From Tetradesmus obliquus (lineage: Eukaryota; Chlorophyta; Chlorophyceae; Sphaeropleales; Scenedesmaceae), in NCBI GenBank assembly GCA_030272155.1, contig CP126192.1, positions 7,970,501 through 8,034,500 of the forward strand: a stretch of 64,000 nt of DNA, read 5' to 3'. A program made the translations under genes and the position numbers. Under the pieces are notes generated by a model. That model was not told the DNA's origin. It was given only the letters and a program-made list of their open reading frames with translations, and did not search any database. Each line of letters starts with the position of its first letter. Within the stretch, counting starts at the first letter, position 1. This document shows, piece by piece, positions 1 through 64,000 of the stretch.

Positions 1-64
1 CTGTGCACGCGTCACACAGTCCAGCACCTGTTACATGCATCCCTGCCTGGTGGTTTATTGCCTT

Positions 65-560
65 GCAGGATGACGTTAAGAACGAGCTGGACGCGATGTT
101 TGCCATCACATTAAACCCACCAGCTCACTCCTCAAAGCTGACTACAATCTGCCTGCGTGCCTGCCTGCCTGCCTGCCTGGTGTTGTATTGCCTTGCCTTG
201 CAGAATGACGACAAGAACGAGCTGGACGCGATGTTTGCCATCACATCAAACCCACCAGCTCACTCCTCATAGCTGAACACAATCTGCCTGCGTGCCTGCC
301 TGCCTGCCTGGTGTTGTATTGCCTTGCAGGATGACGACAAGAACGAGCTGGACGCGATGTTTGCCATCACCAGACACCCATGCACCTCTTGCTGTAGCTG
401 AACACATGCCTGCTTGCCTAATTCTTGTATTGCTTTACAGGATGACGACAAGAGTGAGCTGGACGCGATGTTTGCCATTGCGCGCATGGCGCCGGAGGAG
501 ATGTGGCGCACGCGCATGGGCCTCGACGAGCTGCGCAACAAGATGAACAGCAGGGCCACG
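65..560 (+). repeat. Exon-edge array, acceptor side, 4 copies
   Basis: Copies of the first part of one exon (DDDKNELDAMFAI) start at 69, 204, 330 and 441, each directly after a TTGCAG or TTACAG acceptor. Spacing is 135, 126 and 111 bp. The first three diverge into intron sequence (CCACCAGCTCACTCCTCA) after about 45 bases; the fourth is the full exon. The array may continue left of the window. Confidence 0.85.
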
Positions 561-7543: not shown

Positions 7544-10500
7544 TCAGCTGCTTTGGAACCGCACTTTCTTTGCTAACCTGCCCTCTCTTCTTCTGCTGCC
7601 CAGGCCCTGCTGGCCTGCAGCAGCAGCACCTGTACGGTCCTTGGCGTCGCTGCTGGCACCTACTTTGCCTTTCACTGCTGCCCTGCCTTTGCCCTTCTTG
7701 GATCCAGCAGCGCTGCTGTCTCTGCCGCCTTCAGGCGCTACATCTGCTGCTGCTGCTGCTGCTGCCGGCATGCTGCTGCCATGCGGTCCCCGCACCACTT
7801 GCACAAACGCATCACACACCGTTTGGAATGCCGCATTGTGTGTCACACACAGAATCTGGCAGCCGCTGCCATCTGTTGCATGCGACAGCTGCCTTAGCAG
7901 TGCTGATGCTCTAGCCTGATTATGCTCATCCAGTGCCGCATCTATCTCATCCATCAGGAACAAGCTGCTGCCGTTGCCTGACCTGGCAACAGCCAGCAGC
8001 ATAGCAAGTGACACGAGTGTCTGCTGACCACCTGAGAGCTGCCCTAGGCTGGTGATCCACTGGCTGTCGCGGCCTTCATCTGCTGCTGCTGCTGCTGCGG
8101 AGCCACTGCCGGCATCTTCCAGACGGCGAAACCTGCATGCACATGACAGGGAGAAGTGCACAGTGATCAGCATGCTTGGGCGCCTGCCTGACAACCCAGG
8201 GCAATTTTGCTTCAGCTCCTGCTTACCTCTTGTGCCAAACAATGCGGCTTCACAATGCCATGCATGCTAGAGGCACGTCCTTCCCCAGACTCCCTCGCGC
8301 AGCTTGACACACAAATGCACACTGCAAGACACACGCCTGTTGTTGGCTGTGATGTTGCTTCCGCGCACCTGAATTGCAGCCCCTCATGGGCCTGCTGCCC
8401 CGTCCTGGCCAGCTGCAGCTGCAGGGACGGCAGCAGGCTGCCACACAGCTCACTGAAGCCAGCAGCAATGTCCTCAAGCACAGCATCATTGGCAGCATGC
8501 ACCTGCAGCAGCACAGCAGCACAGCAGCAGGTCAATTGAGCAGCAGCGCAGCAGGCTGCCACACAGCTCACTGAAGCCAGCAGCAATGTCCTCAAACACG
8601 GCATCATTGGCGGCATGCACCTGCAGCAGCACAGCAGCACAGCAGCAGGTCAATTGAGCAGCAGGGTGCCACACAGCTCGCTGAAGCCAGAAGCAATGTC
8701 CTCAAACACGGCATCATTGGCGGCAGGCACCTGCAGCAACACGGCCGCAGATCAAGCAAGCAGCAGCTCAGCAGACATGCTCCATTGCGGTGGGGATATG
8801 TGTTGCCGAGAATGCAGGTGGTTGCCGAAGCTGCAGGAATGTCCACCAAAGAAGCAGCAGCGCTGCGGCAATGCAGCTATCACTGGACAATGTGCTACGG
8901 TTTGCTGCCACGCTGCTTTGCATATGCAGATAGAGTTGTGCAGCCGCACCTGCTCTGTGCAATCAGCCATGTGCTGCTCCAGTGTCGCGTGCAGCGGCAA
9001 CTGCTCTGTTCAATTTGATCTATATTGATATTTTGCAGCCACACCTGCCCTGTGCATTCATGTGCTGCTCTAATGTCCCGTGCAGCAATGCCATGCAGCC
9101 GCAACAGCTCTCTTGATTTCAATCTCTTTCAATGTTTTTGCAGCCGCACCTGCTCTGTGCAATCAGCCATGTGCTGCTCCAGCGCAGCCGCTGCCGCCTG
9201 CAGCGCCTCGCTCTGCTGCTTGAACTGCGCCACCTGAGCCACGCGGCTGGCACACAGCTCCTGCAAGCACAACAGGCAGCCACGGTGGCAAGCAGCAAGA
9301 CAGTGGAAACGGTGGGAGCGCTGTCTACACAGTGCTCCACCTAAGGCATGCGGCACGCACGGAGTTCCTGCTCCAGCTGTGCTGCCTCCTGCCCAGCTCT
9401 GGCGAGCTGCTTTGAGCATTGTATGCTGTACACGGCCGTCACGGTTGCCAGCAAGCCTGGAATCTCAAGCTAATCCAATGTCTGGCAAAATGGCACTTGT
9501 CATGTTCTAGCATGGCTTCCCTCTGTGCATAGATGTTGCAGTTGGTTCAGAATGTAGAAAATCAACGAACTCTCAGTGTGGCATGTGTTCACCTTCTGGG
9601 CTGCTGGCAGCTCTGGCAGCTGTGCCGCCTCCTGCTGCAACCGCCTGGCCTGCCGCAGCATCTGCTGCACCTCTTTGGCTGTTGGCACAGCTGCTGCTGC
9701 TGCTGTTCCATCTGCTGCGCTGCCATCTTCTACACTCTCTGCTGCAGCACCAGCAGCAGCTGCTGCCAGGTCGTGCAGTGCATCGTGGCATCCAAAGTCC
9801 TTTGCAAGCTGCTGCAGCTCCTGCTTGCATCGCTTCAAGCTAGCAGCTGCATCTTGGGCCTTTGCTTGCACCCGCTGCTGCTGCAGCAGCAGCGCCCGCT
9901 GATGCTTCTGCTGCTGCTGCAGTTCCCGGTCAAGCGCTTCAAACTTGCCCTGCAGCTGCTGCAGCTGCTGCTCGAGCTCTGCAGTAGCCGCCTGCTGCTG
10001 CGCGTGCTGCTGCTGCAGCTGCTGCAGCTGATCTTCCTGCTGCTGCAGCTGCTGTTGCCGCTGCTGGGCGTCCAGCGTGCTGCTGGCTTGCATTTCCAGG
10101 GTCTCAAGCCTCACAGACAGTTGTTCCATCTAGCATGCAGCAGCAGCAGTTTGTTGATAAGCAGCTGCTGTTGGCATGTACCTGCTGAGGTGCTCGAAAG
10201 GCTGCCATGCATGCATACTGCAGAGAATAGCGAAAGGCTGCCATGCAAGTGCAATGCAGCGGGCGGGTACAGCAATACTACGCTACGCGTGCACAGCAAC
10301 GGCATGAGCAGCAGAGTCCAACCCATACCTCTTCTTCTGCTGCTTGCAGCTGCTGCTCCGCCTCCTCAGCAGCTGCTGCTGCCTTTCGTGCATCCTCCTG
10401 CAGCTGCTGCCTTAGCGTAGCTGCAGCCTGTTTGCTACTGCCGCCACCACCAGCAGCCCCTGTCCCAGCTGCCTTGCACTGCTGCAGCCGCTGCTGCAGG

Positions 10501-14757: not shown

Positions 14758-17439
14758 ATGGCAGATGTTGCAGGCAACCAGCACAGTGGGAGCAGCAACG
14801 CCTTTGCCTGGGGTCTGAATGTGTCCACATCAGTACTGATAGTGTTTGCCAACAAGGTGCTGCTGTCAACCAACGGTGGCCATGGCTTCACTTTTGGTGC
14901 GGCTCGAAGCAGCAAGAACAAGAGAAGCTTTTACTGTGCTTCTCAGCAACTGACACTTATCTACAACCTGCAGCCACTACGCTGTGTGCGCTGCACTTCT
15001 TGGCTAGTGCTGCCAGCATCTGGGCAGCACAGGCCATGGGCCTTGCAGGACAGGCCAGAATCCCAACGAAAGGTGGGTCAGAACGAATCGCGCAACTAGC
15101 AGCAGCTGCTGAACAGTATGCAGCATTCACACGCCTGGGCCAGCAAGCAAAGCATGCCAGTCTTAACATGCCCAACGTTGTACACGGCTGCATGCTGCAG
15201 TGTCTGCATACTCATCAGCTGAATACTTTGCTGCATTTTGCACCTGCAGATGCCCTGAAGTTTGCAGTGATGGCCAACATGTCCATTGCCAGCCTCAACC
15301 TGTCACTGCTAGTCAACTCAGTCGGGTTCTATCAGGTGAGGCTCAGCAGCTGCCTGCTGCCAGTGCTACCTGCCAGCGCACGTAAGCTTGCAGGACATGC
15401 TGTAAGCACACGTAGCAGGTGTATGTGGCACTACTCACGCTGCTGCTGATGCTACACTTCAGGTTGCCAAGCTGCTGATCACCCCTTGCACATGCCTGAT
15501 GGAGATGCTGGCTGTTGGCAAGACAATCACACCAGGCATTGCCGCCAGCATTGCCATGGTTGTGGCAGGCGTAGCAGTTGTGTGAGTCTCCAAGAAGGGT
15601 GGCAACATAACAGCCTGCAGCAATAGAACAATGTGCCTTGGACCAGCGTCAGCAGCTGCAGCTGGCGCAGCATTAGACAGCAGCCAGGGTGTGGCAGGTG
15701 CTTTTGTCAAGAACCCAGCAGCTGACACCAAACGATCATACCGGATGATTCATACGTATTGCCTGCTGAGCAGTTTGCAGTGCCGCTGATGCCGCACCCA
15801 CGTCAATCACCTTATTGCAGCAACAACAGCAGCAGCATGGCGACTTGGTCACCAGCGGACACATCCATATCACACACGAGCTGTTGCAAGTTCTTTGCTT
15901 TGCTGACTTGGTGCACAACCTGTTTTGCCTCTATGCAAACTTGACACACAATGAATAAGGCAATTTCTTTGTGTACGGCGTCGCTCCTGCAGGACTGTGA
16001 ACGATGTGCAGGTCAACCTGCTGGGCTTGGCCATTGCAGTTGTGTCAGTCGTGGCCAGCGGCACGCAGCAGATCATGTGCGGCACGCTGCAGCGCAAGCA
16101 CAAGCTGTCCTCGCACCAGCTGCTGTCCAACACTGCATACATCCAGGTGGGCGGCAGCAGCAGCAGCAGCAGCTGCGGTAGAGTGTTGAGCAGGCAGCTG
16201 ATTGACATGAACAACACAGCCAGCTTTTCAATAATGCTAGCAGCTCATTGGGCTTCTACAATGTGTGACATTTTGGTGCTGACAGCAAGCAAAGAGCACC
16301 CAAATTGTAGTTGGGCTGGGTGCGGCAAGCACAGCCTGCACACCACAAGCATGCGCACTGCTTTGCTTGCTGCTGACAACTTTGTTGGCTGGCTGCTGTT
16401 GCTGTCCCTAATTCGCAGGGCATGATGCTGCTGCTGGTGGGCCCCTTCATTGACCAGGCAGTGTCGCAGCGCTGGCTGCTGGACTATACCTGGACGCAGC
16501 CTGCGCTGCAGCAGCTGCTGCTGTCGTGCAGCCTCGCAGTGCTGGTCAACGTGAGCCAGTACATGTGCCTGGGGCGCTTCTCTGCTGTTACTTTTCAGGT
16601 GGGCAGCTGCACGTTGTATATGCACTGCTGTGCACTTTTGGTTTGCGGCAGCAGGACAGCAGCTGTGCTGGTCGTTGTGAGCTGGTATATGTGCCTTGGG
16701 CGCTTCTCTGCTGTCACGTTCCAGGTGGGCAGCTGCGCGTTGTGCTTCCAGTGCTGTTCACTTTTGGTTTGCGGCAGCAGGACAGCGGCTGTGCTGGTCA
16801 ATGTGAGCCAGTACATGTGCCTGGGGCGCTTCTCTGCTGTCACGTTCCAGGTGGGCTGTGATGACACCTGTGTGTTGAAATTGCACTGCTGCGCGGTGTT
16901 TGTCTGGTATGAAACAATGGTGGTTGCAGCAGCAGGACAGCCAGTGTCAGTCGGGGACTTTGTTGGCAGTTGGAACTTGGCTCGCTGTCCAGGCCTTCTC
17001 TTGCAGATGACATGTGGCTGGTTTAATTGGTGCAGCAGCCGTCAAGCTCACATGAACAGCATGTGTACTTGGCTGCCGATGGCACTAGAAATGGCAGTGC
17101 GCTTGGTGCTTGAGCCTGTGCAGAGTGTGTCAGCTGCAGGATCCCCATAGCCAGAGGCAGAAGCTCATGCATCACCATATGCTGGTTGGGCTGGCTGCTG
17201 TGTAATGGCTCCAATGCTTCTGCATCATGTATTAACCCAAAAACTTAATCTTTGTGGAGTAATGACCGATCCTATTGTTCAAATCTGCAGGTGCTGGGCC
17301 ACACCAAGACCATCCTGGTGCTGCTTGCCAGCTGGTGGGTCTTCCAGGAGCAGATGACAGCACGCAAGCTTGCAGGAATGGGCCTGGCAGTGGCAGGCAT
17401 GGTGCTGTATGGCTGGCTGGGCAGCAGCAGCAGCAGTGC

Positions 17440-46279: not shown

Positions 46280-47538
46280 CTCGGAGGATGTTGTTTCAAT
46301 AAAAAAAAGCTGCCTGGAGATTCCCGTGCTTCCGAAGCAGTACCAGCAGCAGCAGTAGCAGCAGAAAGAGGTAGCAGCGGATCAGACGGTTGTCTCGACG
46401 CACGATAAATAGTAGATAAGAGAGCTTTAAGCTGTTGTGCGTGGTTATGTCACGCTTAGCATACCTCCTGCAATGCTAGAGGCTGTCGTAATCTCGCGGT
46501 GTTCGGGTGCCGTCACAGTTTCTGGCAGCAACGCAATGCTTCGGACAGAACTGGATTGCTGAATTGATTCTCAATTGATAGTCATCAGATGATGCTGAGC
46601 CAGCACTCAACCCTGGCTCTCACCCACGTAACTCACCCACGTAACTCGTTCCAAGTTTTACCGGAGGTGACCAGCACACTCCCAGGCCTTTTCTCGTGCA
46701 CGTGGTTCCTTGAGTCGAAGCATCTCCACTACATGTCATCTTACACCTTATGAAATACAGGAACCATCACAGCCATCGAGCTTCTGTTGAAGGGCCTCTC
46801 CCACTTGGACTGTTGCATATACAACACTGCCCCACAATCCTGCACCTACACGCACGATACGACTGCTGTTGTCCTGCTGCGACGCATTTGTTTCCAAAAA
46901 CATGTGATATGAACCATCCAGTAACACAAGCAAGTCGAGCAATATATATTTTGACATCCTTGAGGCAACCACAACAGCCACCTGGTGCAACTTGTTTGGA
47001 CAAACAAATGCATGCAGCGCTGTGTAAGATTCATGCATGCCATTGCAGCAATGCTTGCAACAATAGAAAAAGTTTCTGCCACACATGCAGATGCATCGCT
47101 GTGCAGTGACCATGCAGGCATTTCAGCACTGCTGACGTGTCAAAACCCTATCAGCTCGCCACCTGGCTTGCTGCCTTGCTGCCCGCAACTCAACTCAGCT
47201 CAACTCATGGGCATTGGCTTGGCCTGAAGCTGCCGTTGATTCAGCTACCCGTACCATAGCCCCCCCACCCCTGCCATCATGGCCTAAACATGCATCACAA
47301 CAACAACCCGCCAACTCAGCTTGCAGGCATTGGCTTGGCCTGCTGCTTTACTAAACCCTCCCACAGCCCCTCGACCCAAAACCCTGCCTTCAGGGTCGCC
47401 ACGTACGCCAAATCAACAAGCCACCAACTCAGCTTGTAGGCATTGGCTTGGCCTGCTGCTTCACTATCCCTACCAGACCCCCTCAACCCAACAACCCTGC
47501 CTGATGGACAAAAATAGGCCAAGAAACAACCCGCCAAC
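46280..47538. other. Between the two transporter paralogues
   Basis: 46280-46700 upstream of the left paralogue has a Leu-rich frame without a start codon. 46750-47200 has no supported gene. 47310-47538 is filled with degenerate copies of the 3' end of the right paralogue. Confidence 0.5.
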
Positions 47539-47600
47539 TCAGCTCGTCGGCATCGGCTTAGCCTGCTGCTTCACTAAACCCTCCCACAGCCCCTCCACCC
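47310..47600 (-). repeat. Displaced copies of the right transporter's 3' end, 3 copies
   Basis: GGCATTGGCTTGGCCTGCTG followed by the TTCACTA...CCCTCCCACAGCCCCT segment (tail [16 protein letters not shown]) occurs at about 47330-47410, 47440-47500 and, as the real end, 47539-47600. Confidence 0.85.
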
Positions 47601-47919
47601 AAAACCCTGCCATCATTGCCGCTACGTACGCCAGCACCTGCGGCACGGGCGCCCCCACAGCCGCCACCACCGCAGGCCCGGGGCACATGCCCGACAGGCC
47701 CCAGCCCGCACCAAACAGCACACCCCCGAGCAGCAGCTTGGGATCAATCTTGTTCGATGTAGGGATCGAGAAACAGGCCTCGCAGTAGGGCTTTGCGAGG
47801 GCTTTGTATTTCAGGATGGCTTGGAAGCATGGGGTTGCCACCAGCAGGGCCCCACCCATGACAAAGGCCAGTGAGAGGTCCCAGGCGGGGTGGAAGGGGC
47901 TCAAGAAGGCGATGACCTG

Positions 47920-47952
<33 letters not shown>

Positions 47953-48514
47953 GCAGCGTAGGGCAGATGTTGGCGGCAACGGCAGTGGAACAGCTTCCAA
48001 GCCACATGTGTACAGTAGGGCTTTGCAAGGGCTTTGTAACTGAGGATGGCTTGGAAGCATGGCGCCGCCACCAGCAGGGCTCCACCCATGACAAAAGCCA
48101 GTGAGAGGTCCCAAGCTGGGTGGAAGGGGCTCAGGAATGCAATGACCTGGCAATAACATCGGCAGCAGCTGGCAGAGCGCAGCAGAGGAACAGCAGGTGT
48201 ACTTGAAGTTGGCTGTGCTAGATGGCAAAGTGTTCTTAGAAGAGCCAGCAAGATGCAGTGTGGCCGTCGCTCGATAGCATATGCGGATGCCGGTGCCTCT
48301 GGGCCCAATGACAAAGCATCAAAACATTTGTGAATAGTTATGTGCTGCTGCCGACCCATAGAACATAGTGAGCACGTTCCTAAGCCTGGGGCATCTAGAG
48401 CAACCGCCTCACCTTGGTGGGCCGCACCATGCCTGTGTACACCAGCCCAAACGCAAACAGCGCCCCGGATGCCAGCTCAGTGGCCAGGCTCACCGCCTTG
48501 GGCTCCTTGCGGAA

Positions 48515-48545
<31 letters not shown>

Positions 48546-51449
48546 ACAGGTTACAACAGTAAGGTAGGGAGGCTCCCCGCCTTGCAGAACTGCCAGCAGC
48601 ACTGGGTTTGCAGCAGCACGAGCGAGGCCTATGTGTAACAATACAGCAGTAACAGCAACAGCTGCCGCACCTGCTGTCCCGCACTCGCCAGCCCCAGCAT
48701 AGCCATAGCCTTAGGTAACCCTAAGCGACAGCTAACAGTATATCTACGACATCAACAGCACCAACTGCCGCACCTGCTGCCCTGCGCTCGCCAGGCCCAA
48801 CATCGCAAGCAGCGCAGCCGCGATCAGCAGTGCCCCACTGTTTGCAACATCACTGCTGGGCATAGCTAGCGGCGGCGGCTGCGCTGCGATGCCTGCTGCC
48901 ATCTCACAACACGAACAGGGCAGCTCACCACATGGCTAGGGTAAAAGCCCTGAAATGACCCAAGAACCACAGCTATCTGTACAAATGTCATACGGTTTGA
49001 CACAGTTGAAGTAACACCCGCCGCACCTGCTGCCCCGCACTCGCCAGGCCCAGCATAGCCAGCAGCGCAGATGCGATCAGCAGCGCCCCACTGTTTGCAA
49101 CATCACTGCTGGGCATCGCCAGAGGCGGCAGCTGCGCTGCGATGCCTGCTGCTGCTGCGCTGTTGGTAAGAGTTGCAGCTGCCATGCCGGATGCCATGAA
49201 CGCAAGCCTGCAGCATGGCCAAACAACACAACACGGTGTTGTCTGTTGCCAACTTGGCGGGCGATGCTTTGCTTGCCCCTGCCATGCTGTTCTGATTTGC
49301 AGGACAGCGTGTCGGTACATGCTAGTATGCTTGCCGCTGCCATGCCACAGCCATTTGCATGCATACAGGCGTGCCAGAACCAGCAGTAATGCGCCAGGAA
49401 GGCGGGAGAGCACAAAAATGGCTGCTTCTTTATGAGTGGTTAGTGGCAGCACGTCAGATGCAGCAACATGAAGCACGTGCAGGATGCGAGCTGCCCAGCA
49501 GAGGTACAGGTGGCATGCCCAGCGTCTGCACTCTCATAGTTTTGCAGCAATGTGTTCACAACCACATCAACATAACAAGCACAAGGCAGCTATGGCTCAC
49601 GTGTAGGCCAGGCTGCGGATAGACAGGCGTGCGTTGCCGCAGATGCCGTGGCCTGAGGTGCAGCCGTTGCCCAGAGCGGCACCCAGCCCCACCAGCAGCC
49701 CGCCCAGCGCAGCACGCGTCACCTGCAAGGGCACAGACAGCGTGCATCAGTCAACTATCATTGCTAAGCACTAGTGCACCAAGCCCCACCAGCAAGCCGC
49801 CCAGCGCGCCACGTGTCACCTGCAAGGGCACAGACAGCCTGCATCAGTCAACTATCAATGCTAAGCACTACTGCACAAGCCCCACCAGCAGCCCGCCCAG
49901 CGCAGCACGGGTCACCTGGCAGCAAACGCAGCAAAACAAGCAACACCACACAGCACTGTCAGCTCAGCACAATCAGTTGCATGCTATATGCCACATCAGA
50001 TGCACACGGGTTGACGGCTGCTGCTGCATATGCGCCCCCCAGCATGCCCAGCGTGACTGTACAAATAACAACAATCAAACCCAACAACAGCTCACCGTGA
50101 AGGTGGCAGGCAGCACGTCAAAGGCTCCTGGCGTGATGGCTGCTGCTACATATGCGCCACCAAGCATGCCCAGAGTGAACAGCACACGCCAGCTGCTGAT
50201 GCTGCCCTGCACGAACCCTCTGCAGGATGGCAGTGCAGCAGGCAGACCATCAGTCTCTGACAGCCTGAACACAGGAAAAGTGAGGGTTGCCCAACATACA
50301 AAGTTCAGCGTGAACAGCTGCTGATGGAGCCCTGCACGAAGCCCCTGCAGGACACACCACAACACGCAAATCCATGGCGGTTAGCAAATCTGACTGTTAC
50401 AGGTTCATTATCAAACTGCAGGAAACCGCATGGGCCAGCTGCTGATGGAGCCCTGCACAAAGCCCCTGCAGGACACAACACCACAGGCATATCCACAGGG
50501 GCACAGGATGGGCATGAGCTGCCAAGGCTGCTGCAGCTGTGTAACTGCCCGAAGCATTGCCTTACAGGAAGCGCCCATGCAAGCCTTATCGTGATGCATA
50601 TTGGCCTTTTCTTGCAGCTGTGCATGCACTCGGAGCAAGCAAGCTCATCTACAGCAGCAGCTGGTCATACTGCTGTGCACTGCAGCGGGCCAACCAACGT
50701 CATGCGCATGGCACCGGATAATATGAATATGAGTTGTATGAGTACATGACTTGAAGCTGCTGGGCTTACTTCAGGGCTCCAGAGATGCCCAAGATGCGCC
50801 CTGTGATGGCAAACTTGCCCACTGCTGCAATGCCCAGCACCAGTCCTCCAAGCAGCGCAGGCACTGGCGTGAACTGCACCAGTGTGGTGGCATTTCCTGC
50901 AAACGTTTGTTCCATTGCAAAGTCTTGCTCCATTGCTGAATGTTGTCTACGAACAGCGCACAGAAAGATGAGCAGCAGAGCCTGCAAGCTGTCGCAGTGA
51001 TGTGCTGCTGCTGTTGTTGATGCAAGAACTGCAGCGCACGCGTGAGGGAACAACAGCAGTGAAGTTGATGTCTCGGGTCCCTGCTACGGTTCGTATGTTG
51101 CTTACTGTTTGTAGCCTGTCCAGGCTGCCAGATTACATCATGCTGCATCATCCGCCTGCTACCTGCCAGGTCCAATGCTGGGAAGTCATAGCTCACCTGC
51201 AGCTGCGGCAGGCAGCAGAGCTGCCCACAGGTCCGCAGTAAACGACGCCTGCACTTTCACCGACGCCCTTGCCCGGTTGACTCTGTTGCAGATGTAAACA
51301 CCACTTGGCACATTTCTACTGCCAGCTGTGCTGCTGATCCTTCTGCCGCCCAGCACTGTGACGGACGCTGGGGTGGCTTTGTTGGTACAGTTCCGCTGTG
51401 AGAGAAGCCTGGTTTGCGCTGCAACGTTGACCTTTGAAGCGAGCTGCAT
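47539..51449 (-). CDS. YeeE/YedE (TsuA-like) sulfur transporter, right paralogue, with plastid transit-like N-terminus
   Basis: Exons: 51449-51197, 51010-50770, 50219-50096, 49722-49601, 49207-49027, 48514-48413, 47916-47539; phases close to 466 aa. The first exon ([20 protein letters not shown], then Ser/Thr/Arg-rich and [12 protein letters not shown]) looks like a chloroplast transit peptide; the start could instead be the Met at 50933 (356 aa). Family marks: [70 protein letters not shown]. Conserved Cys residues of the thiosulfate transporter family are retained. Likely role: movement of thiosulfate or another small sulfur compound, possibly across the plastid envelope (inference). It is a tandem paralogue of the gene at 46279-42543, with identical lengths for three internal exons. 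Confidence 0.85.
47820..48150 (-). repeat. Exon-edge array, acceptor side, 2 long copies
   Basis: The exon start [19 protein letters not shown] ... [12 protein letters not shown] begins at 47916 (complete) and 48146; the upstream copy keeps about 135 bases of coding sequence. Period 230 bp. A CAG tract (47921-47955) lies between them. Confidence 0.9.
48665..49130 (-). repeat. Exon-edge array, donor side, 3 copies
   Basis: The exon end [20 protein letters not shown] ... GQQ plus GTGCGGC is complete at 49027 and recurs ending at 48774 (about 85 bases retained) and 48671 (short). Confidence 0.85.
49680..49920 (-). repeat. Exon-edge array, acceptor side, 3 copies
   Basis: The exon start [14 protein letters not shown] begins at 49722 (complete), 49819 (VTRGALGG) and 49915, spaced 97 and 96 bp, each after TTGCAG or TGCCAG. 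Confidence 0.9.
50000..50475 (-). repeat. Exon-edge array, acceptor side, 3 copies, plus an internal copy
   Basis: The exon start [10 protein letters not shown] begins at 50219 (complete), 50344 and 50465. A separate partial copy of the middle of the exon ([13 protein letters not shown]) lies at about 50010-50062, on the donor side. Confidence 0.85.
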
Positions 51450-52218: not shown

Positions 52219-53848
52219 CTACCGCAGCTCTACCTTGAGCTGCTCCGCCACGCCCTGCCTCACGCGTGCCTGCAGCCCGTTGATCTCTTCATCAGTCAGG
52301 CTGCGCTCCATGGAGCGGTACGTGATGCGGTAGCAGTTGCTGGTGCGCTGAGTCTTGGGGTTGGTGAAGTTGTCGATGCAAACCACCTCCTCCACCAGGT
52401 CCCCGCCAATGCCTGTAAATGAATGGGCAGCAGGATGTTATTCGGTTAATAGGTGTCAATTGAATTGCTGATGTTGTTGAGGAGCACCACCTCCTCCATC
52501 AGGTCAACCAATGCCTGCAGCAAGGAGAACATATGGCACATAAGGGTTTTGATGCTTGATAGGTGTCAAGTTGGTTGGTGAAGTTGTCGATGCACACCAC
52601 CTCCCCCACCAGGCTGTTCTTCGTAAACTCGGGTGACACCCAGAAGGCCACGTCCTTGTAATCTTACAGCAACCAAGCAGCCAGCTGGCACCAGCTCGCA
52701 CAGGTTGTTCTCTGTGAACTCGGGTGACACCCAGAAGGCCATGTCCTTTTAGCAACACAGTAACCCAGCAACACGATTCCTCACCTCGAACAAGCTCGCA
52801 CAGGTTGTTCTCGGTGAACTCGGGTGACACCCAGAAGGCCATGTCCTTGTAGCATGGCGGGAACTTGCTGTAGCTCTTGAACTTGGAGTTCAAGTCTCCC
52901 GCCTTGAACTGCTTCAGGAAGCGGTCGTCATCAGACCAGAACAGCCTGCATCATGACACATCATTTGCGTCAATGAAAAGACACACAGCATGATCAGGAC
53001 GTGGAAAGAGCGGCTGAGCAGCCTGCAGAGGCACACTCGTCGTCAACATGTCGCCATCTGGCCTTGACACATCGCTGACAGGCCGTGTGATGTTTGGATG
53101 TTGAACAGCGCTACGTCACATGTGCTCTGTGCATGATCCACCCCCTGAAACAACGCCCTGAAGGCCCTGCAGCCAGCACACGCCGCGCACGCACCTGATG
53201 TCAGGGATGTCGAACAGCACCATGGCCAGGCGCTCCAGGCCCAGGCCAAACGCCCACGCCTTGTGGCCTGCGAAGGCACGGCACAAGCAAGCAAGGCGGC
53301 AGCAGCAGCAGTAGCAGCAGGTGACGGGAGGAACCTGGTGTAGAGAGGCAGGCAGCAGGCAGATAGCTGACACCTGCAGCACATGTGCAGGCACAGTGCA
53401 CCACAAAAGCCCACACTCTCCTTGCTGAAGGCGCGCACAAAAGCATGTCCAGCATTGTAACACTGATATGACACACACCAAAGTGTTACAAAACATGCGC
53501 ACCCCCGCTGTAGGTATTTGGTCCGGGATGACATGCTCCAGCACGCCGCCGCGGCACAGCACCTCCATCCACTTGCCGTCCCAGGGCGGAGCACCTCCAT
53601 CCACATGTCAGGCAACACGTCATGTAATACACCATAAGCAACAAGATAACACAAAAAATAACATAACACTCACCCTCGCCGTAGTTCTTGTCCAGGATGA
53701 CCTGCTCCATCACGCCGCAGCCCAGCACCTCCATCCACTTGCCGTTGAAGAAGATCTCCAGCTCAAATGACGGCTCAGTGAAGGGGAAGTATGCGTCCAC
53801 CCAGCGGCACTCCACGTCACCAAACAGGTGCTTGGCCAGGCCCTGCAG

Positions 53849-53900
<52 letters not shown>

Positions 53901-53979
53901 CGGCTCAGTGAAGGGGAAGTAAGCGTCCACCCAGCGGCACTCCACGTCACCAAACAGGTGCTTGGCCAGGCCCTGCACC

Positions 53980-54018
<39 letters not shown>

Positions 54019-56284
54019 GCCGGCGGCGGGAACAGAGTTCAATTGATGAAATCAACGCACAATGCCAAAACTGCACACATCAGAGCAACAGCTAATGCAG
54101 GCTTGCGCGCAATATACAAACATATTGCACTCAACAAGCTGTCTCCCTTGCCTCCAGTGCCGCCTTCAGCTCCCGCTCTGCAAAGGCGATGGCCTCCAGC
54201 CCCGCTGCCTCCCAGTCTGCGGGGCCGTAGATGCGCACACCACATACATCAACCCACATGCCAAATACCAACCAACATCGTTACCTCAAGTGCCGACTCG
54301 AGCTCGTGCTCTGCAAAGGCGATGGCCACCAGCCCCGCCACGACCCAGCCCACGAACACGACGGTACAAAGCAGCAGGACATCCCTCATGTGCACTCACC
54401 TTGAGTGCCAATTACAGCTCCCGATCTGCATGAGCAGTCGCCTCCAGCCCCGCTGCCTCCCAGTCTGCGGGGCCGTAGATGCAGCTTGCACACATGCCAA
54501 AGCAAAGCAAAACCATAGCACACTCACTTCCAGTGCCGACTTGAGCTCCCGCTCTGCAAAGGCGGTGACCTCCAGCCCCGCTGCCTCCCAGTCTGCAGGG
54601 CCGTAGATGCGCATTGCAAACATATGATCACATGCCTGCAGGAGAACAGCCTCACCTCCAGTGCCGACTTGAGCTCCCGCTCCGCAAAGGCGGTGGCCTC
54701 CAGCCCTGCTGCCTCCCAGTCTGCGGGGCCGTAGATGCGCACACCCTCCATCTGGTGGAACACGGGGTAGTGCGTGGCGTCAATGCTGTCGCGGCGGTAC
54801 ACGTCGCCTGCACAATCATGCACAGCAAGGACAAGAATGTAAAGGGTTTGAGAATGGTTAGCGCACATGGAGGCTGGTCGTTGCTGTCGGGCCGGCACGC
54901 TTTGCCTACGCAATGCGCAAATTGAAAAAATACGCAGCAGACAGACAGGCCGCGCACGTGTGAGCAGGTCATGTGCAACAGACCCTCACGCCCCACCAAA
55001 CTTTCTACACTGTGACGAGGAGGGCTGGTCGCTTGGTGCGCGGCAGCTCACTGCCTGGTGCGCTGAGGTGTAACAGCACAGCACCTTGTTCGCCGCCACA
55101 ATCACTTGCACCAACACACATGACAGCGACTGCAAAAACACCTAATCTTTTACAGCAGGCAGCTTGCGTGCAAAATTCATCATCTGTACAAGCTGCACCT
55201 GGCACAGCGTGCTATAAACAACACAAAGCAAAGCAAACAGGTCGCCCGCACCTGTGACTAGGAAAGCCGGCTGCTTGGTGCGCAGCAGCTCCGCTTGGTG
55301 TGCCGATGTGTGGCAGCGCAGCACCTTGTCTGCTGAGACATTGATGCACTTGCACCGAGACACAAAGTATGACAAAAAAAGTCTCGTACACCGCTCGGCT
55401 TGCTGCCATTCTCATCCTCTTAAAAAGCTGTGCCAACAAAACGAATAAAAAGCAAACAGGATTCCGCACCTGTAACAAGGAAGGCCGGCTGCTTGGTGCG
55501 CAGCAGCTCCGCCTGGTGTGCTGAGGTGTGGCAGCGCAGCACCTTGTCTGCTGAGACATTGATGCACTTGCACCGAGACACATAGTATGACAAAAAAAGT
55601 CTCGTACACCGCTCGGCTTGCTGCCATTCTCATCCTTATCAGAAGCTGTGCCAACGAAACGAATAAAAGCAAACAGGATCCGCACCTGTAACCAGGAAGG
55701 CCGGCTGCTTGGTGCGCAGCAGCTCCGCTTGGTGTGCTGAGGTGTGGCAGCGCAGCACCTTGTCTGCTGACACGTAGTAGGTGTCATTCGGGCTGCGGCT
55801 GACGTGATCTGCGGGGATGAGGATCTCATCGAAATTGGCGGTGCAGGCCACCACTGGGTACATGTCATCGAAGGCCTTGAACACACCTGCTTGCAGGAAA
55901 GTGTGCAGGAACAAGCGGCAGCGGCGGCGGGCAGCAACATGAGGACGGCTATCACTGCGTGTGCATAACTGGCTGCAAGTGTTACAAGATGTGGTGAGAA
56001 ACGAGCAGCACCATGGGAAGAGGACCTCGTCGAAATTGGCAGTGCAGGCCACCACTGGGTACATGTCATCCAAGGCCTTCAACACGCCTGCTTGCAGGAA
56101 CGTTTGCAGGAGATGTGCGGCACGGCAGCAACATGAGGACGCTCTATCACTGCAAATGACAGCTCAGGCAGTTGCTGGCGGGCCGCGTCACATATGAACC
56201 ACTGTAGACACCTGACAGCAGCAGCTGGTGATCAGTATATCCAGCCAGCCGCTTGCGCTGATAGCAGCTGCCCTAGACTGTACA

Positions 56285-56319
<35 letters not shown>

Positions 56320-56898
56320 CAGCTCACACCAGACCATCTGCTAGCCCCCCGAATCATACACTGCTGCTGTCATTTGTCTACACCGCCCAATGCTTTCAAA
56401 TTGTCAATTCAAATTCAAATTCAAATTCATATTCAAATGTGACGCACCCGGGGACCCCTGCTCAAAGTAGTCGTAGATGGCCTGCTTGATGATGCCAATG
56501 GGATGGTTGGGCTGGTGGTGCAGGTTGATGCCCATCTTGCTGTAGATATATTCTGTAACGTTATTTGCAGGGTCTGACGTCAGCACCTGGTCCTTGGCAG
56601 GCGCTGCTGGCCCCCTGCGGGCCTCCACTGCTGCTGTGGCCAGCGGCCGCAGCGCGCGGCGCGAGCGGGCGCTGCTGCTGCTGTTGATGCGTGCAAAGGG
56701 CCGCTGCTGGCGCCCGCAGAGGCCCAGGCTGCTGCCGAGGGTTGCCAGAGGGCTGCTGCTGCTGCTGGTGCTGCTGTAGCTGCAGCTGCATACTGCAGGG
56801 CTGGCACTGGCAATCGTGCGGGCGCGGGCTGCCACTGGTGCAGGCATGCAGGCAGACATGAGGGCGCGATGCGCGCCCTTGAGTGTTGCTGCACGCAT
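52219..56898 (-). CDS. Organellar phenylalanyl-tRNA synthetase (monomeric), seven exons, 466 aa
   Basis: Exons: 56898-56448, 55886-55686, 54807-54656, 53842-53674, 53267-53195, 52945-52785, 52412-52219; phases close to 467 codons. The first about 100 residues are Arg/Ser/Ala-rich, a plastid or mitochondrial transit peptide. Then the class II core: [84 protein letters not shown], motif 3 [19 protein letters not shown]; then the C-terminal ferredoxin-fold anticodon-binding domain ([16 protein letters not shown] to [14 protein letters not shown] and EQLKVELR). The order and the ending match the plant organellar enzyme. It charges organellar tRNA-Phe with phenylalanine. Six of its exons have tandem copies of one edge in the adjoining intron. 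It is divergent from the SprT-like gene. Confidence 0.95.
52370..52610 (-). repeat. Exon-edge array in PheRS, acceptor side, 3 copies
   Basis: The start of the last exon ([19 protein letters not shown]) is complete from 52412; degenerate copies lie at about 52510-52455 ([12 protein letters not shown]) and 52610-52555 ([14 protein letters not shown]). Confidence 0.75.
52600..52860 (-). repeat. Exon-edge array in PheRS, donor side, 3 copies
   Basis: The exon end [20 protein letters not shown] ends at 52785 (complete), with copies at about 52680-52750 and 52615-52660. Confidence 0.8.
53510..53745 (-). repeat. Exon-edge copies in PheRS, donor side
   Basis: [19 protein letters not shown] at 53740-53680 (real exon) recurs as [19 protein letters not shown] at 53580-53525, and as a short WMEVLRPG at about 53605-53580. 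Confidence 0.75.
53775..54020 (-). repeat. Exon-edge array in PheRS, acceptor side, 2 copies, with CAG tracts
   Basis: The exon start [20 protein letters not shown] begins at 53842 (complete) and 53972, period 130 bp. Each is preceded (+ strand: followed) by an almost pure CAG run, 53851-53899 and 53981-54018. Confidence 0.9.
54150..54760 (-). repeat. Exon-edge array in PheRS, donor side, 5 copies
   Basis: The exon end [20 protein letters not shown] ... ALE plus donor ends at 54656 (complete) and recurs ending at about 54531, 54400, 54284 and 54151, spaced about 115-135 bp. Three of the copies keep a GTGAGTG, GTGAGTG or GTAACG-type donor. Confidence 0.9.
55005..55790 (-). repeat. Exon-edge array in PheRS, donor side, 4 copies
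   Basis: The exon end [20 protein letters not shown] ... FLVTG plus donor ends at 55686 (complete), 55470, 55252 and about 55009, spaced 216-243 bp. The first two downstream copies are nearly identical to the real exon over about 100 bases and share long identical intron flanks. Confidence 0.9.
55800..56095 (-). repeat. Exon-edge array in PheRS, acceptor side, 2 copies
   Basis: The exon start [19 protein letters not shown] begins at 55886 (complete) and at about 56084 ([19 protein letters not shown]). Confidence 0.85.
56404..56440. repeat. Hexanucleotide tract at the PheRS intron 1 donor
   Basis: (ATTCAA)n-type repeat, about six units, directly after the GTGCGTC donor of exon 1. Confidence 0.85.
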
Positions 56899-59956: not shown

Positions 59957-62900
59957 CTATACATTTCCGTACTTGTGCTCGGTACCTCCTGCTGCCACCA
60001 CTGCCTCCTCCGATGAGTCATCATCTGCCTGCTCCCGCTGCTGCGCAGCCGCCGCCAGCTCACCCGCTGCTGCTGCTGCCTTCCTATTCGCATGGATCTG
60101 CACGCCTGCTACAGTTGAGCTCACCACACAGAGTCCTGCAAGCAGCGTAAAGAAGGGCCCTGCACCCATCTTCTCAACCGCCACTCCAGCAACCAACAGA
60201 AACAGCCCGCACGCAAGGAACATCAAACTCTGCACGCCCGCGCACGCTGCCGCGGCGTTTTGCTGCTTAATCGTCGTCAGGTAGCTGAACACTGCCGGCA
60301 CGTAGATTGAAGTGGCGACGCCCACTAGGAAAAGTGCGATCAGCGGAATTGCGATGTGCAGCTTGAAGTGGAAGCTCCATCCGTACAGCAGCACAGAGGC
60401 TGGCAGCAGCACGAGATTTGCCGCGTTGTTGTACAGCAGCTTGAGCTGCGGCTGCTGCGGGTTTTTGGCGTAGCCGATGTCAGAGAGCTTGCCGCCGATA
60501 GGGCAAAAGAAGAAGCCTGCGGTTGAAGCAAAGGGATGCAACATGTGTCAGCATAAGCAACCTTGGACAGACCAAGGGTAGCCGGAACGCTAAGGGTACC
60601 CGATGTTGGACAGCTTGCCGCCAATAAGGCAGAAGAAGAAGAAGAAGCCTGCGGTTGAAGAAAATGGTGCAACAGTCGTGAGCGCAAGCAGAAAATGGTG
60701 CAACAGTCGTGAGCGCAAGCAGATTGAGTTAAGGCATCAACGAATTCCTTGTGTAGCCGATGTCAGAGAGCTTGCCGCCAATCGGGCAGAACATTTAGCC
60801 TGCGGGCAGGCAGGCACAAGTTGCAAACACACAATCGCACGAGCCGCCTAGAGGCCAACAAAAACAGAACCCAACCTGTATGCGTGCCGAGCTTACACCG
60901 TTCTTGCCGCCTACTGGTCTCAGCGCTCATCTCCCAGCCGAAGTATGTAGCGTAGGATCCATGTATGTTGTCTAGGCAATTCCAGCAGATCTGCATTGAA
61001 TCAGCCTCAAGAACTCACCTGCAGCCTCAAGAAATCACCTGCAGCGTTCTGCGCCAGGCAGGCAATGCCAATCATGGCAGGGCTGAGGCAGTATGGCGCT
61101 GCCGCCAGGAACCAGCCCTGCTACCCAAAACCTGCTGCTGAGAACCCTGCTACCCAAAACCCTGCTGCCCTCACCTGCAGCGTTCTGCGCCAGGCAGGCA
61201 ATGCCGATCATTGCCGGGCTAAGGTGGTGCAGCGGCTGTGATAAATCCAGTGGTACGGCGGCTGTGTTAAAACCCTGCTGCCCAAAACCCTGCACCCTCA
61301 CCTGCAGCATTCTGCGCCAGGCAAGCAATGCCGATCATTGCCGGGCTGATGTAGTATGGCGCTGCCGCCAGGAACCATGACAGCTGCACCACGCAGCAGA
61401 ACATGGCCCCAAAAGCTACAAAGGTGGATGCTGCATGCAGCAGGATGGCACGGTCCAGCAGCAGCTGGTAGGGGTACCAGGGCGCCTGCAAAACAGGAAG
61501 GAAAATGGTTGAAGGCGTAGGCGGCAGGTGGGGCAGGAGATTCTGTGTCAACGCCATTGAGTGTATGCCAGCTGAAGCCCAGTACAGTCTACCTCGGATG
61601 AAAGTTTCTTGCCCTGCATAAACGCAGGTGACCGCAACGACTGGTGCTGAAGATGCACATGGAAGATGTAAGCGCACCGCAGCACCCATGACTCAGGCTG
61701 CTGCTAAGTGTTCAAGCACTGCCACGACTCAGCCCTGCAACAAAACCCCACCTGGAACCTGGGTGGGTGGCGCTCGATCTCAGGTGCCTCGTCAATTTCT
61801 GCTGCTGCCAGCGCATTGTTGCTCTTGAGGCGCTGCAGCACGATGTACTGGTGCGTCTCCGGCACTGCAGGCAGCGCACAGCAAACACGCAGACAGGTGA
61901 GTGATCATAGGAGTGAGCTGCAGCAAAATGTACTGGTGCGTCTTGGTCACTGCAGCACACAACAAACAATAAAATGCAAACTCACCCTTTACAACATACA
62001 GCAGGCAGGTGAGTGATTAAAGGTGCACGCTGCAGCGCAATGTACTGGCGCGTCTCAGGCACTGCAGCACACAGCCAACACGCAGACAAATGAGTGATCA
62101 TAGGAGTAAGCTGCAGCAGGATGTACTGGTGCATTTCAGGCACTGCAGGCAGCCAAGTAAAAGCGCAGACGGTGTGGCTCTAGTTGCCTCAGGATGGTGA
62201 TCATAAGTGTGCGCTGCAGCACGATGTACTGGTGCGTCTCGGGCACTGCAGCACACAACATACAGCAGAGACGCAGGCGGTGTAGCTTCAGTGGCCTTGT
62301 GTGAGTGTTGTTAAAAAGTAAACTGCTGCACGATGTACTGGTGCGTCTCAGGCACTGCAGGCGGCAGAAGAGCAGATGGATGGAACATTACCAGTGATGT
62401 CTGAGCAACAGTATACTGTGTGCATCAGCAGCACATGTGCACTGTGTACAATGGCACAGTTCACGCAGCTGATCATCGACTCCTCCACTGCCCTCTGCTG
62501 CTGCTAGCATTATAGCGACATGCAAGCAGCCGCAGCCCAGCGGCCGCCGCCAAAGCCCAGCGCCTCACCCACCAAAGTAAGCAGCAGCAGCAGGGTGACC
62601 GCGGCCGTACATGACAAGCTACGTGTTAAACAGCTATTGCTGGCGTCACTACAATGTCTAAGCCACCACTTCATCACTCACCGACAAAGATCAGCAGCGG
62701 CAGCAGGATGACTGCCGCATACATGATGACGGCCATGAAGGTGGAGCGCCAGCCAAAGGCCTGAGACAAGCCTCCACCCAGCACAGGGCCTAAGATGGGA
62801 CCTGCGGCAAAAGGCAAGTATGGGCAATGAAGGAGTTTGTACAAGATCAGCACGTTTGTGATACAAGCCATGAGGGTGGAGCGCCAGCCAAAGGCCTGAA

Positions 62901-64000
62901 ACAGGCCGCCACCAAGCACAGGACCCAAAATGGCGCCTGGAGTGACACGCAGGGATTTGAACAGCAATTTATCAGTAAGTAAAGGCCAGAAGGTGGAGCG
63001 CCAGCCAAAGGCCTGCGAGAGCCCACCACCAAGCACCGGGCCCAGGATGGGACCTGCGGCGACAGACAAAAGTGATGAAAAGAGACGAACACCAACAAGT
63101 TTGTGGTGCATGTTCATGACATGAAGATGGAGCACCAGCCAAAGGCCTGGGACAGGCCACCACCCAGCACAGGGCCCAGGATGGGACCTGCAGTTGACAC
63201 ACAGATTGGTGACACAGCAAGCTTGCTTAAGAATCAGGCCTAGTCAGTGCTGTTACTATGCAGCCAAAGGCCTGAGACAGCCCGCCACCCAGCATGAGGC
63301 CCAGACTGAGACCTGCGGCAACGCGCAGGGATTTGAAAACAAACGGCCTAGTCAGCAAGGTTTAGGTACAAGCCGTGAGGGTGGAGCGCCAGCCAAAGGC
63401 CTGGGAGAGCCCGCCACCCAGCACGGGGCCCAGGATGGGACCTGCGGCAATAGGCAAGAATTCGCGATGAACGAGTCTGTACAAGACTAGCACGTTCGTG
63501 GTACAAGCCATGAGGTGGAGCGTCAGCCAAAGGCCTGAGGCAGCCCACCACCAAGCACCGGGCCCAGGATGGGACCTGCAGTGACAGACAAGTGATGAAA
63601 AGAGACGACCAACAACATGTTTTTGGTACATGTTCATGACATGAAGGTGGAGCGCCAACCGAAGGCCTGAGACAGGCCACCACCCAGCACAGGGCCCAGG
63701 ATGGGACCTGCGGTGAAAGACAAGTGATGAAAAGAGACGAACACCAACAAGTTTGTGCTGCATGTTCATGACATGAAGGTGGAGCGCCAACCGAAGGCCT
63801 GAGACAGGCCACCACCCAGCACAGGGCCCAGGATGGGACCTGCGGTGAAAGACAAGTGATGAAAAGAGACGAACACCAACAAGTTTGTGCTGCATGTTCA
63901 TGACATGAAGGTGGAGCGCCAGCCAAAGGCCTGAGACAGCCCACCACCTAGCACCGGGCCCAGGATGGGACGTGCGGTGGCACACCAGGTTTCAAAAACA
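59957..64000 (-). CDS. MFS transporter (drug:H+ antiporter-like), 5' part beyond the window
   Basis: Exons (high to low): 62801-62682, 61864-61752, 61485-61302, 60516-59957; phases join exactly (1, 0, 1). The first visible exon carries the MFS motif C of the DHA1 group, GPILGPVLGGGLSQAFGW, and TM segment MYAAVILLPLLIFV. Then a cytosolic loop (THQYIVLQRLKSNN, acidic), further TMs (LHAASTFVAFGAMFCCVVQL, PAMIGIACLAQNAAG) and GFFFCPIGGKLSDIGYAKN, the MFS motif A-like loop. Four more TMs follow, ending in a cytosolic Ala/Glu/Asp-rich tail and TAG at 59957. Substrate unknown; export of small molecules by proton antiport is the family expectation. The upstream exon (ending in phase 1) lies to the right, beyond an array that reaches the window edge. 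Confidence 0.8.
60465..60805 (-). repeat. Exon-edge array in MFS gene, acceptor side, 3 copies
   Basis: The last-exon start FFFCPIGGKLSDIGY begins at 60516 (complete); copies at about 60650-60600 (FFFCLIGGKLSNIG) and 60802-60757 (CPIGGKLSDIG). Confidence 0.85.
61010..61380 (-). repeat. Exon-edge array in MFS gene, donor side, 3 copies
   Basis: The exon end SPAMIGIACLAQNAAG plus GTGAGG is complete at 61302 and recurs ending at about 61174 and 61039; a further short CTCACCTGCAGC lies near 61013. Confidence 0.85.
61825..62360 (-). repeat. Exon-edge array in MFS gene, acceptor side, 6 copies
   Basis: The exon start PETHQYIVLQ begins at 61864 (complete) and recurs at about 61950, 62062, 62142, 62244 and 62354, each after a CTGCAGTG acceptor. 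Spacing 80-112 bp. Confidence 0.9.
62735..64000 (-). repeat. Exon-edge array in MFS gene, acceptor side, 10 copies, running off the window
   Basis: The exon start GPILGPVLGGGLSQAFGW begins at 62801 (complete) and recurs at about 62938, 63053, 63187, 63312, 63441, 63575, 63707, 63839 and 63971, spaced 115-137 bp. The units starting at 63707 and 63839 are almost identical over their whole 132 bp, so amplification is recent. The copy at 63971 has lost its acceptor (CTGC to CGTGC). Confidence 0.9.

Follow-up and report, generated by a model that had tools for sequence, protein, structure and literature searches.

Tandem copies of coding edges in introns of Tetradesmus obliquus: conserved exon halves beside diverged intron halves

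Introduction

Introns of T. obliquus are long, with an average of 462 bp given in the accessible text of PMC5966456. In the 64,000-bp stretch analyzed here (the window; contig CP126192.1, positions 7,970,501 to 8,034,500, in an assembly of 104.66 Mb and 17 contigs), introns of several genes contain tandem copies of the edge of a neighboring exon. How do such arrays arise, and how do the copies evolve beside the working exon? A preliminary description had proposed for them a process acting at splice junctions. The literature searched, in which subscription journals were thinly covered, held no account of this exon-edge copying pattern.

Results

Exon-edge arrays in the window

TRF returned 71 rows for the window, with periods often of about 90 to 240 bp, and self-BLAST gave numerous same-strand pairs; comparison with the reversed sequence gave no match in either piece tried, the window and C1. 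Rfam searches found no family reaching its gathering score, nor were relatives of the window present in the genome set. After grouping, the window held 40 repeat arrays, of which 36 touch an exon edge, 2 partly overlap exons and 2 touch none. The 36 are spread over seven gene models, which agrees with the "at least 28 arrays in seven genes" first described, and the exon-edge arrays are confirmed. Among these models, three come from the HMM, and two of those three may fuse adjacent genes; four genes, the UAH-like gene, Y1, Y2 and the organellar PheRS gene, were checked by homology. The features are as follows.

UAH-like gene
26191..32451, minus: UAH-like gene (ureidoglycolate amidohydrolase, named after the hit list; P0160 and P0159 aligned with splicing)
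Checked exons, minus: 26191-26597, 27021-27175, 28215-28321, 29165-29290, 31264-31422, 31999-32164, 32410-32451
31546..32070, minus: donor-side copies, exon 31999-32164 (self-BLAST)
29638..31348, minus: donor-side array, exon 31264-31422 (copies within a 1973-bp intron)
29233..29612, minus: acceptor-side array, exon 29165-29290 (self-BLAST)
28560..29223, minus: donor-side array, exon 29165-29290 (self-BLAST)
28104..28248, minus: donor-side copy, exon 28215-28321 (self-BLAST)
27109..27926, minus: acceptor-side array, exon 27021-27175 (TRF and self-BLAST)
26892..27086, minus: donor-side copy, exon 27021-27175 (self-BLAST)
25962..26223, minus: copy of the CDS end, on the stop-codon side and without a splice site (self-BLAST)

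Y2
42552..46291, minus: Y2, YeeE/YedE-like gene (spliced protein alignment)
Exons counted, minus: 42552-42920, 43138-43236, 44188-44368, 44818-44939 (exons 45583-45715 and 46167-46291 were aligned but excluded from copy counts)
44893..45154, minus: acceptor-side array, exon 44818-44939 (self-BLAST)
44336..44588, minus: acceptor-side array, exon 44188-44368 (self-BLAST)
43404..44277, minus: donor-side array, exon 44188-44368 (self-BLAST)
42865..43027, minus: acceptor-side copy, exon 42552-42920 (self-BLAST)
42063..42655, minus: array across the CDS end (self-BLAST)

Y1
47542..51449, minus: Y1, YeeE/YedE-like gene (spliced protein alignment)
Exons, minus: 47542-47916, 48413-48514, 49027-49207, 49601-49722, 50096-50219, 50770-50896, 51197-51449
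50188..50495, minus: acceptor-side array, exon 50096-50219 (self-BLAST)
49679..49918, minus: acceptor-side array, exon 49601-49722 (TRF and self-BLAST)
48651..49152, minus: donor-side array, exon 49027-49207 (self-BLAST)
47783..48185, minus: acceptor-side copy, exon 47542-47916 (self-BLAST)
47196..47633, minus: array across the CDS end (TRF and self-BLAST)

Organellar PheRS gene
52222..56898, minus: organellar PheRS gene (P0001)
Exons, minus: 52222-52412, 52785-52945, 53195-53267, 53674-53842, 54656-54807, 55686-55886, 56448-56898
55814..56153, minus: acceptor-side copy, exon 55686-55886 (self-BLAST)
55010..55773, minus: donor-side array, exon 55686-55886 (TRF and self-BLAST)
54148..54745, minus: donor-side array, exon 54656-54807 (TRF and self-BLAST)
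53769..54017, minus: young acceptor-side duplicate (97.5%), exon 53674-53842 (TRF; present in the P0001 gene model)
53488..53745, minus: donor-side copy, exon 53674-53842 (self-BLAST)
52610..52854, minus: donor-side array, exon 52785-52945 (self-BLAST)
52359..52613, minus: acceptor-side array, exon 52222-52412 (self-BLAST)

HMM-modelled genes
8430..8774, minus: exon-edge array (TRF; HMM model) of a gene that we take to be SMC-like
16536..16856, plus: donor-side array (TRF; HMM model) of a transporter gene, presumably TPT-like from its appearance
60470..63988, minus: four exon-edge arrays at 60470-60805, 61035-61377, 61830-62365 and 62731-63988 (TRF and self-BLAST; HMM model) of a presumably MFS-like gene

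Geometry and intron length

In the four checked genes, the adjoining intron contained copies at 11 of the 21 donors and at 10 of the 21 acceptors. PheRS exon 1 contributed six CAG-rich rows that were dropped, so that 62 of 68 rows of exon-edge copies were kept; all donor-side copies lay downstream of their source (41/41), all acceptor-side copies upstream (21/21), and the alignment ended within 15 bp of the edge in 59 of the 62. The strict geometry first described holds for the checked genes but not for the 227 rows of an HMM-annotated sample from elsewhere in the genome (see below), where donor-side copies were downstream in 90 and upstream in 41 rows, acceptor-side copies upstream in 60 and downstream in 16, and 20 rows stopped short of the edge; such mixing is expected where copies themselves are called exons. 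The geometry had been taken as a sign of a junction-directed process, but any edge-crossing tandem duplication yields it automatically, because one copy stays on the exon and the others fall in the intron. Most copies keep their splice sites, as claimed: anchoring at the junction was possible for 47, and 40 of these had an intact splice dinucleotide. Arrays are not confined to splice junctions, since CDS ends had copies as well in three of the four checked genes.

The copies lie head to tail beside their source inside the same gene, as in introns formed by tandem duplication, and number up to 12 in a single intron. The normal protein is obtained with a single copy of each edge, as the alignments of P0121, P0122, P0125 and P0160 show, the exception being the P0001 gene model with its PheRS exon-4 duplicate. 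By eye, the left ends of donor-side copies had no consistent AGGT. Over the 21 introns of the four checked genes, intron length equals 259 bp plus 130 bp for each copy (r2 of 0.85). Edge copying is a concrete route of intron growth, at about 130 bp per event, and may help to explain the long introns recorded in the accessible text of PMC5966456. Unit lengths are indeed similar across unrelated genes, although the spread is tighter than the 80 to 240 bp given before: edge arrays of the sample had a median unit of 129 bp (quartiles, 115 to 143 bp). Partial matches are frequent, with a median of 46% of the unit aligned in 36 two-copy edge arrays.

The preliminary description had considered an assembly artefact. 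For one array at least this is unlikely, because the PheRS exon-4 duplicate is part of the gene model of P0001, a UniProt protein of T. obliquus (464 of 466 aligned residues identical).

Edge preference beyond the window

We compared array positions with random placement, as had been proposed earlier, in 250 kb made up of five random 50-kb sites elsewhere in the genome. Arrays were present at all five, which extends the pattern beyond one locus. Of 82 arrays, 5 with units over 400 bp were excluded; of the remaining 77, edges accounted for 60, introns for 8, intergenic sequence for 5 and an exon for 1, and 3 were partial. The calls were made with a gene finder (an HMM seeded with the checked genes) that reproduced 16 of 26 checked exons exactly even with these in its training set, an exon-call error that the sample annotation inherits throughout. 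Random placement on collapsed genes gave expected shares of.26,.46 and.28 for edge, intron and intergenic positions, and against an expected edge share of 0.36 the edge-to-intron count has a p of 1e-18; edge concentration goes well beyond geometry. The position independent of exon edges that a minisatellite unit should have was not found. Pairs in the window were near in 112 cases and far in 15.

Does this excess reflect a process directed at the junction, be it splicing coupled or based on R-loops, lariats or cDNA, that creates duplications at splice sites? It persists among arrays whose noncoding half is young (identity of at least 0.90; 15 edge, 2 intron, 4 intergenic), and identity drops sharply at the junction, as shown below, both of which speak for such a process. 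In the youngest arrays (noncoding half of at least 0.95) the counts were 4 edge and 1 intron (p of 0.06), and in the small set of whole-unit two-copy arrays (n = 11) they were 6 edge, 1 intron, 3 intergenic and 1 exon. Against it, stop-codon flanks are copied too, young units include the intron half (the C8 array and PheRS 53769-54017 repeat the entire unit, by eye), and some young arrays do not touch an exon. For these reasons a splicing-coupled source is not needed, and we consider a junction-directed origin unlikely. HMM models place gene ends unreliably; of their stop-codon edges, 0 of 17 had copies. Part of the edge enrichment is accounted for by the longer survival of exon halves.

Exon halves and intron halves diverge differently

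What is new here is the mode of copy evolution: exon halves are conserved, intron halves are much more diverged, and changes have a synonymous bias. In 47 of the 62 copies, identity to the source was 0.89 to 0.93 as far as the junction and 0.61 to 0.67 from 6 to 50 bp past it, where random segments gave 0.49 to 0.55 across most of the span; an identity of 0.64 was calibrated to a divergence of about 0.35 to 0.40. The dN/dS between copy and working exon was 0.25 (95% CI, 0.15 to 0.40) for 26 arrays of the checked genes and 0.38 (0.28 to 0.50) for 67 arrays of sample copies outside predicted exons; figures for sample copies overlapping predicted exons were not relied on because true coding repeats are mixed in. 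Between copies of the sample, the ratio was 0.47 (0.32 to 0.66) and hence not below 0.5. The copies' dS of 0.24 is below the 0.57 between Y1 and Y2, paralogues with intron positions and phases in common. Mutation bias was rejected as the cause of the synonymous excess, since the spectrum-corrected neutral expectation is still a nonsynonymous fraction of 0.735.

These data bear on one-way duplication of the working exon into the intron followed by neutral decay, with edges just recognizable for longer. The spread of whole-unit two-copy arrays over several classes, the copy-copy ratio of the sample and the older residues retained in UAH copies would all fit, but such decay bounds the nonsynonymous fraction at about 0.58, compared with 145 of 374 differences in the checked genes, and exon halves diverge far below the two-thirds of the intron rate that it allows. 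As a complete account it is rejected on these two values, and we regard one-way decay as very improbable.

Are the copies then functional themselves, as alternative exons or as decoy or backup splice sites, each selected in place? Their dN/dS below 0.5 in the checked genes and their intact splice dinucleotides agree with this, as do private changes, whose nonsynonymous fraction of 0.53 is below neutral (p of 4e-5), so that the copies may be under some direct constraint. However, private changes (48 nonsynonymous, 42 synonymous) are far less filtered than shared variants (4 and 20; Fisher p of 0.0013, 6 arrays). Moreover, donors of the copies are mostly intact, but the left ends of donor-side copies have no consistent acceptor AG (by eye), and P0160 and P0121 align with a single copy of each edge. 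Some copies are called exons by the HMM. Altogether, direct function appears to be an unlikely reason for the conservation. In the sample, shared variants had no synonymous bias (6 nonsynonymous, 3 synonymous, 7 arrays).

Discussion

A probable account: tolerated duplications and exchange with the working exon

The account that we consider probable is that ordinary short tandem duplications are tolerated and re-expanded at coding edges and that their exon halves probably exchange with the functional exon. Tandem duplications of about 90 to 250 bp (mode, about 130) would arise within genes of the alga; one that crosses an acceptor, a donor or a stop codon would be tolerated, because the gene can still make its normal product from the copy that remains on the exon body, and the spare copy would land in the intron or 3' flank. 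Arrays already present would then re-expand. Initially, the exon half of a spare copy would record the functional exon as it stood, and it would probably go on exchanging with that exon by conversion or contraction, either of which would let the spare copy become the working edge. By such exchange, selection on the working exon would reach the copies, while the intron half, with no tie to the working exon, would drift. We infer random origin, selective retention and exchange, the last from one genome and partly by eye. In favor of the account are the edge excess at the five sites, the whole-unit repeats of young arrays, intron growth with copy number, the copied stop-codon edges, the contrast between exon and intron halves, the low dN/dS of copies, the stronger synonymous bias of shared than of private variants in the checked genes, and, in UAH, the residues that copies share with P0160 together with the seemingly separate histories of the two halves (the latter also in the C8 array). 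Several results count against this account: the edge bias of arrays with a young noncoding half, which re-expansion or targeting could give, the 6:1 ratio of edge to intron among whole-unit arrays, the lack of copies at HMM stop edges, the unbiased shared variants and copy-copy dN/dS of the sample, and the low nonsynonymous fraction of private changes. The interpretation in the preliminary description is, on the whole, partly supported.

Intronic minisatellites form head-to-tail arrays that expand and build higher-order units, all of which is seen alike in the arrays of the alga. Unlike them, units of the alga contain a coding edge more frequently than random placement gives, and their exon half is slow to evolve, with a synonymous bias. 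In concerted evolution and gene conversion, part of the unit stays similar through exchange between adjoining tandem copies; here, unlike the usual case, the partner would be a working exon, with the exon half alone keeping pace. In the potato RdRp gene, the accessible text of PMC4974935 describes a duplicated stretch as an intron-exon structure with its own splice signals. As in ATP2A1 and potato RdRp, tandem duplication is local to the gene and tolerated with splicing restoring the normal frame, whereas in the alga it mainly lengthens introns that already exist, and does so at numerous edges of each gene and at several genome sites. Partial exon tandem duplication in Drosophila, as far as described in the accessible part of PMC2891723, likewise turns part of duplicated exonic sequence intronic, but those novel introns depend on a duplicated AG/GY proto-splice site within the exon, whereas the unit of the alga spans an existing edge, including stop codons. 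With introners, as presented in the accessible part of PMC9860276, the arrays share a common mode of origin for many introns of one genome, but no dispersed family was found: searched against the whole genome, one UAH exon matched at least 10 places, all in its own locus.

Older edge copies beside a live exon are a natural test of splicing choice among near-identical edges, and the arrays one of whether selection reaches unexpressed copies by exchange. The coding look retained by intron copies is a local record of each gene's change.

Residues retained in UAH copies

A further reading, which is conceivable but doubtful, is that spare exon edges in introns swap with the working edge and that coding ends evolve as small multi-copy families. 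If so, purifying selection would extend to non-coding copies, and each intron would be a parts store and fossil record of its gene, as exemplified by UAH copies, which retain a K and a D that the working exon has since replaced by E and N. In P0160, K and D occupy the positions for which working exon 29165-29290 encodes E and N. The K is present in both copies on the acceptor side, and the D in at least three of the five on the donor side. Another genomic source of the UAH copies was rejected: genome-wide searches with one exon and P0160 gave, among the best candidates scored, the own locus and two weak C15 matches. The spacings of UAH copies, 143 to 189 bp, are a multiple of three in 4 of 9 cases. 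By eye, the exon half and the intron half of the unit appear to differ in history in both UAH and the C8 array.

Gene models

The genome containing the window (C2:7970501-8034500) comprises 104,662,953 bases in 17 contigs; T. obliquus assembly GCA_030272155.1 is given as 17 contigs and 104.7 Mb (PMC12571836). Four genes, referred to here as the checked genes, had their exons defined by spliced alignment with homologous proteins (P-numbers).

Checked genes and the homologues used
PheRS, organellar: P0001
Y1 and Y2, tandem YeeE/YedE-like genes: P0125, P0122, P0121
UAH, ureidoglycolate amidohydrolase: P0160, P0159

The window's PheRS translation aligned over 466 residues with a T. obliquus protein in UniProt, 464 of them identical. 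Y2 exons 45583-45715 and 46167-46291 were excluded from copy counts because the donor after 45583-45715 could not be placed. All remaining genes of the window, and every gene in a sample of 250 kb from five other sites, are predictions of a custom HMM that recovered 16 of 26 checked exons exactly, fuses adjacent genes and is poor at gene ends. The HMM genes called SMC-, TPT-, MFS-, SprT- and UGT-like are presumed to be such from their translations.

Y1 and Y2 (42552-51449) are paralogues that share 187 of 254 aligned residues (dS, 0.57), with arrays at several corresponding edges in both. PheRS and the YeeE/YedE-like genes adjoin each other (42500-56900), and consecutive protein numbers in the match lists (Rsub_11709/Rsub_11710 and J3K34DRAFT_399590/399589) suggest the same adjacency in Raphidocelis and Monoraphidium.

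Tandem arrays at exon edges

The preliminary description had counted at least 28 junction arrays in seven genes, and indeed, 36 of the window's 40 arrays touch the edge of an exon, spread over seven gene models. In the checked genes, copies were present at 11/21 donors, 10/21 acceptors, 3/4 stop-codon ends and 1/4 first-used exon starts, the latter being an internal acceptor of Y2. Donor-side copies lay downstream in 41/41 cases and acceptor-side copies upstream in 21/21; the strict geometry described earlier therefore holds but is uninformative on mechanism, since any tandem duplication across an edge gives one-sided placement by definition. Intron length followed 259 + 130 x copies (r2 = 0.85, n = 21 checked introns), or 301 + 108 x copies (r2 = 0.65) with the 12-copy intron removed.

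The copy rate in the sample was below that of the checked genes (44/227 donors, 34/230 acceptors and 2/14 CDS starts in HMM models; 0/17 CDS stops, in models whose gene ends are poor) and was uneven between sites.

Exon edges with copies at the sample sites
C1: 12/122
C2: 3/90
C3: 13/88
C5: 30/110
C8: 22/78

Array density thus contrasts strongly among chromosome sites, as seen for pieces L024-L028 versus L029-L033 (C8 versus C2).

Preference for edges

For a null model, arrays were collapsed on the annotation and units of observed size were placed randomly; 77 of 82 sample arrays, with units up to 400 bp, were kept. Sixty were edge arrays, 8 intronic, 5 intergenic, 3 partial and 1 exonic, versus random expectations of.26 edge,.46 intron and.28 intergenic when these three tolerated classes were kept. 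The proposed non-random preference for junctions is upheld in number, but survival must account for some of the excess, because edge copies stay recognisable once their intron halves have diverged. In two-copy arrays the aligned share of the unit had a median of 46% at edges (n = 36), 48% in introns (n = 5) and 87% between genes (n = 5). Noncoding-half identity of ≥0.90 was found in 15 edge, 2 intron and 4 intergenic arrays, and of ≥0.95 in 4, 1 and 4, several of these being re-expansions within existing arrays; the 11 whole-unit two-copy arrays comprised 6 edge, 1 intron, 3 intergenic and 1 exon. These age counts are compatible with both retention plus re-expansion and mild targeting and do not decide between them.

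At four of the five sites, introns had higher repeat coverage than the sequence between predicted genes, with the opposite at C2. At positions 460-5844 of piece L033 (C2:4040001-4050000), young tandem duplications (best pairs, 95-99%) cluster where no exon is predicted, possibly a mobile or satellite region.

Divergence and selection

Junction identity was profiled for 47 of the 62 copies, those aligned up to the junction and not lying at the gene's end. The exon part was 0.89-0.93 identical to the working exon, the one used in the gene's product; intron-side identity was 0.78 at 2-6 bp, 0.61-0.67 at 6-50 bp (0.48-0.55 for random segments) and 0.53 at 50-60 bp (0.41 for random segments). In simulation, a matched fraction of 0.64 corresponds to a divergence of about 0.35-0.40.

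Mismatches to the working exon numbered 92, 48 and 234 at codon positions 1, 2 and 3. Copy versus working exon, dN/dS was 0.25 (CI, 0.15-0.40; one copy per array, 26 arrays) in the checked genes and 0.38 (0.28-0.50; 67 arrays) for those copies of the sample that lay outside exon predictions; copy versus copy, it was 0.29 (0.16-0.53; 17 checked arrays) and 0.47 (0.32-0.66; 21 sample arrays). By reasoning, copies neutral from birth and made solely from the working exon should show a floor of about 0.5; the checked genes lie below it, and the sample copy-copy value is not clearly below. In six arrays the synonymous bias sits mainly in variants common to at least two members (4 nonsynonymous, 20 synonymous; private, 48 and 42), a contrast absent from the seven sample arrays that have four or more members (shared, 6 and 3; private, 31 and 25). 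Synonymous differences strongly predominated at UAH exon 31264-31422, with means of 4.8 synonymous to 1.3 nonsynonymous over 45 copy pairs; no such bias appeared at PheRS exon 52222-52412 (0 to 8 in its single pair) or Y2 exon 44188-44368 (3.4 to 5.3).

Probable exchange and older states

By eye, a UAH array contains copies that share near-identical intron halves but have exon halves differing at synonymous sites, and in a C8 array the working exon's end is unlike copies with nearly matching intron halves. Mosaics of this kind are consistent with conversion or recombination within a unit. At two residues of UAH exon 29165-29290 the working exon and P0160 disagree, with E and N in the former and K and D in the latter; K is encoded in 2/2 acceptor-side copies and D in at least 3/5 donor-side copies, D also being present in P0159, a more distant homologue. 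Read from these translations, the copies retain an older state than the working exon.

We propose that short tandem duplications arise, that those straddling a coding edge would survive best and lengthen the intron, and that the exon halves would track the working exon through descent and, probably, exchange as well. The closest known cases are the duplicated intron-exon structure of potato RdRp (PMC4974935) and Drosophila exon duplications of the AG/GY type (PMC2891723); listings from a search of mostly open-access literature showed no description of a form with many copies that span an edge.

At 53769-54017, a duplicated exon start is translated in the P0001 gene model, giving a 14-residue stretch twice. 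The array has probably led to a wrong annotation here, since five related proteins (P0002, P0003, P0011, P0015 and P0004) have the exon start once. CAG/GCA runs are abundant in coding and noncoding DNA (e.g., 34183-37492 and 53851-54017), some at the ends of duplicated units. Within predicted exons of a sample locus (L019:7337-9953), a long repeat whose step is 225 bp looks like a true coding repeat.
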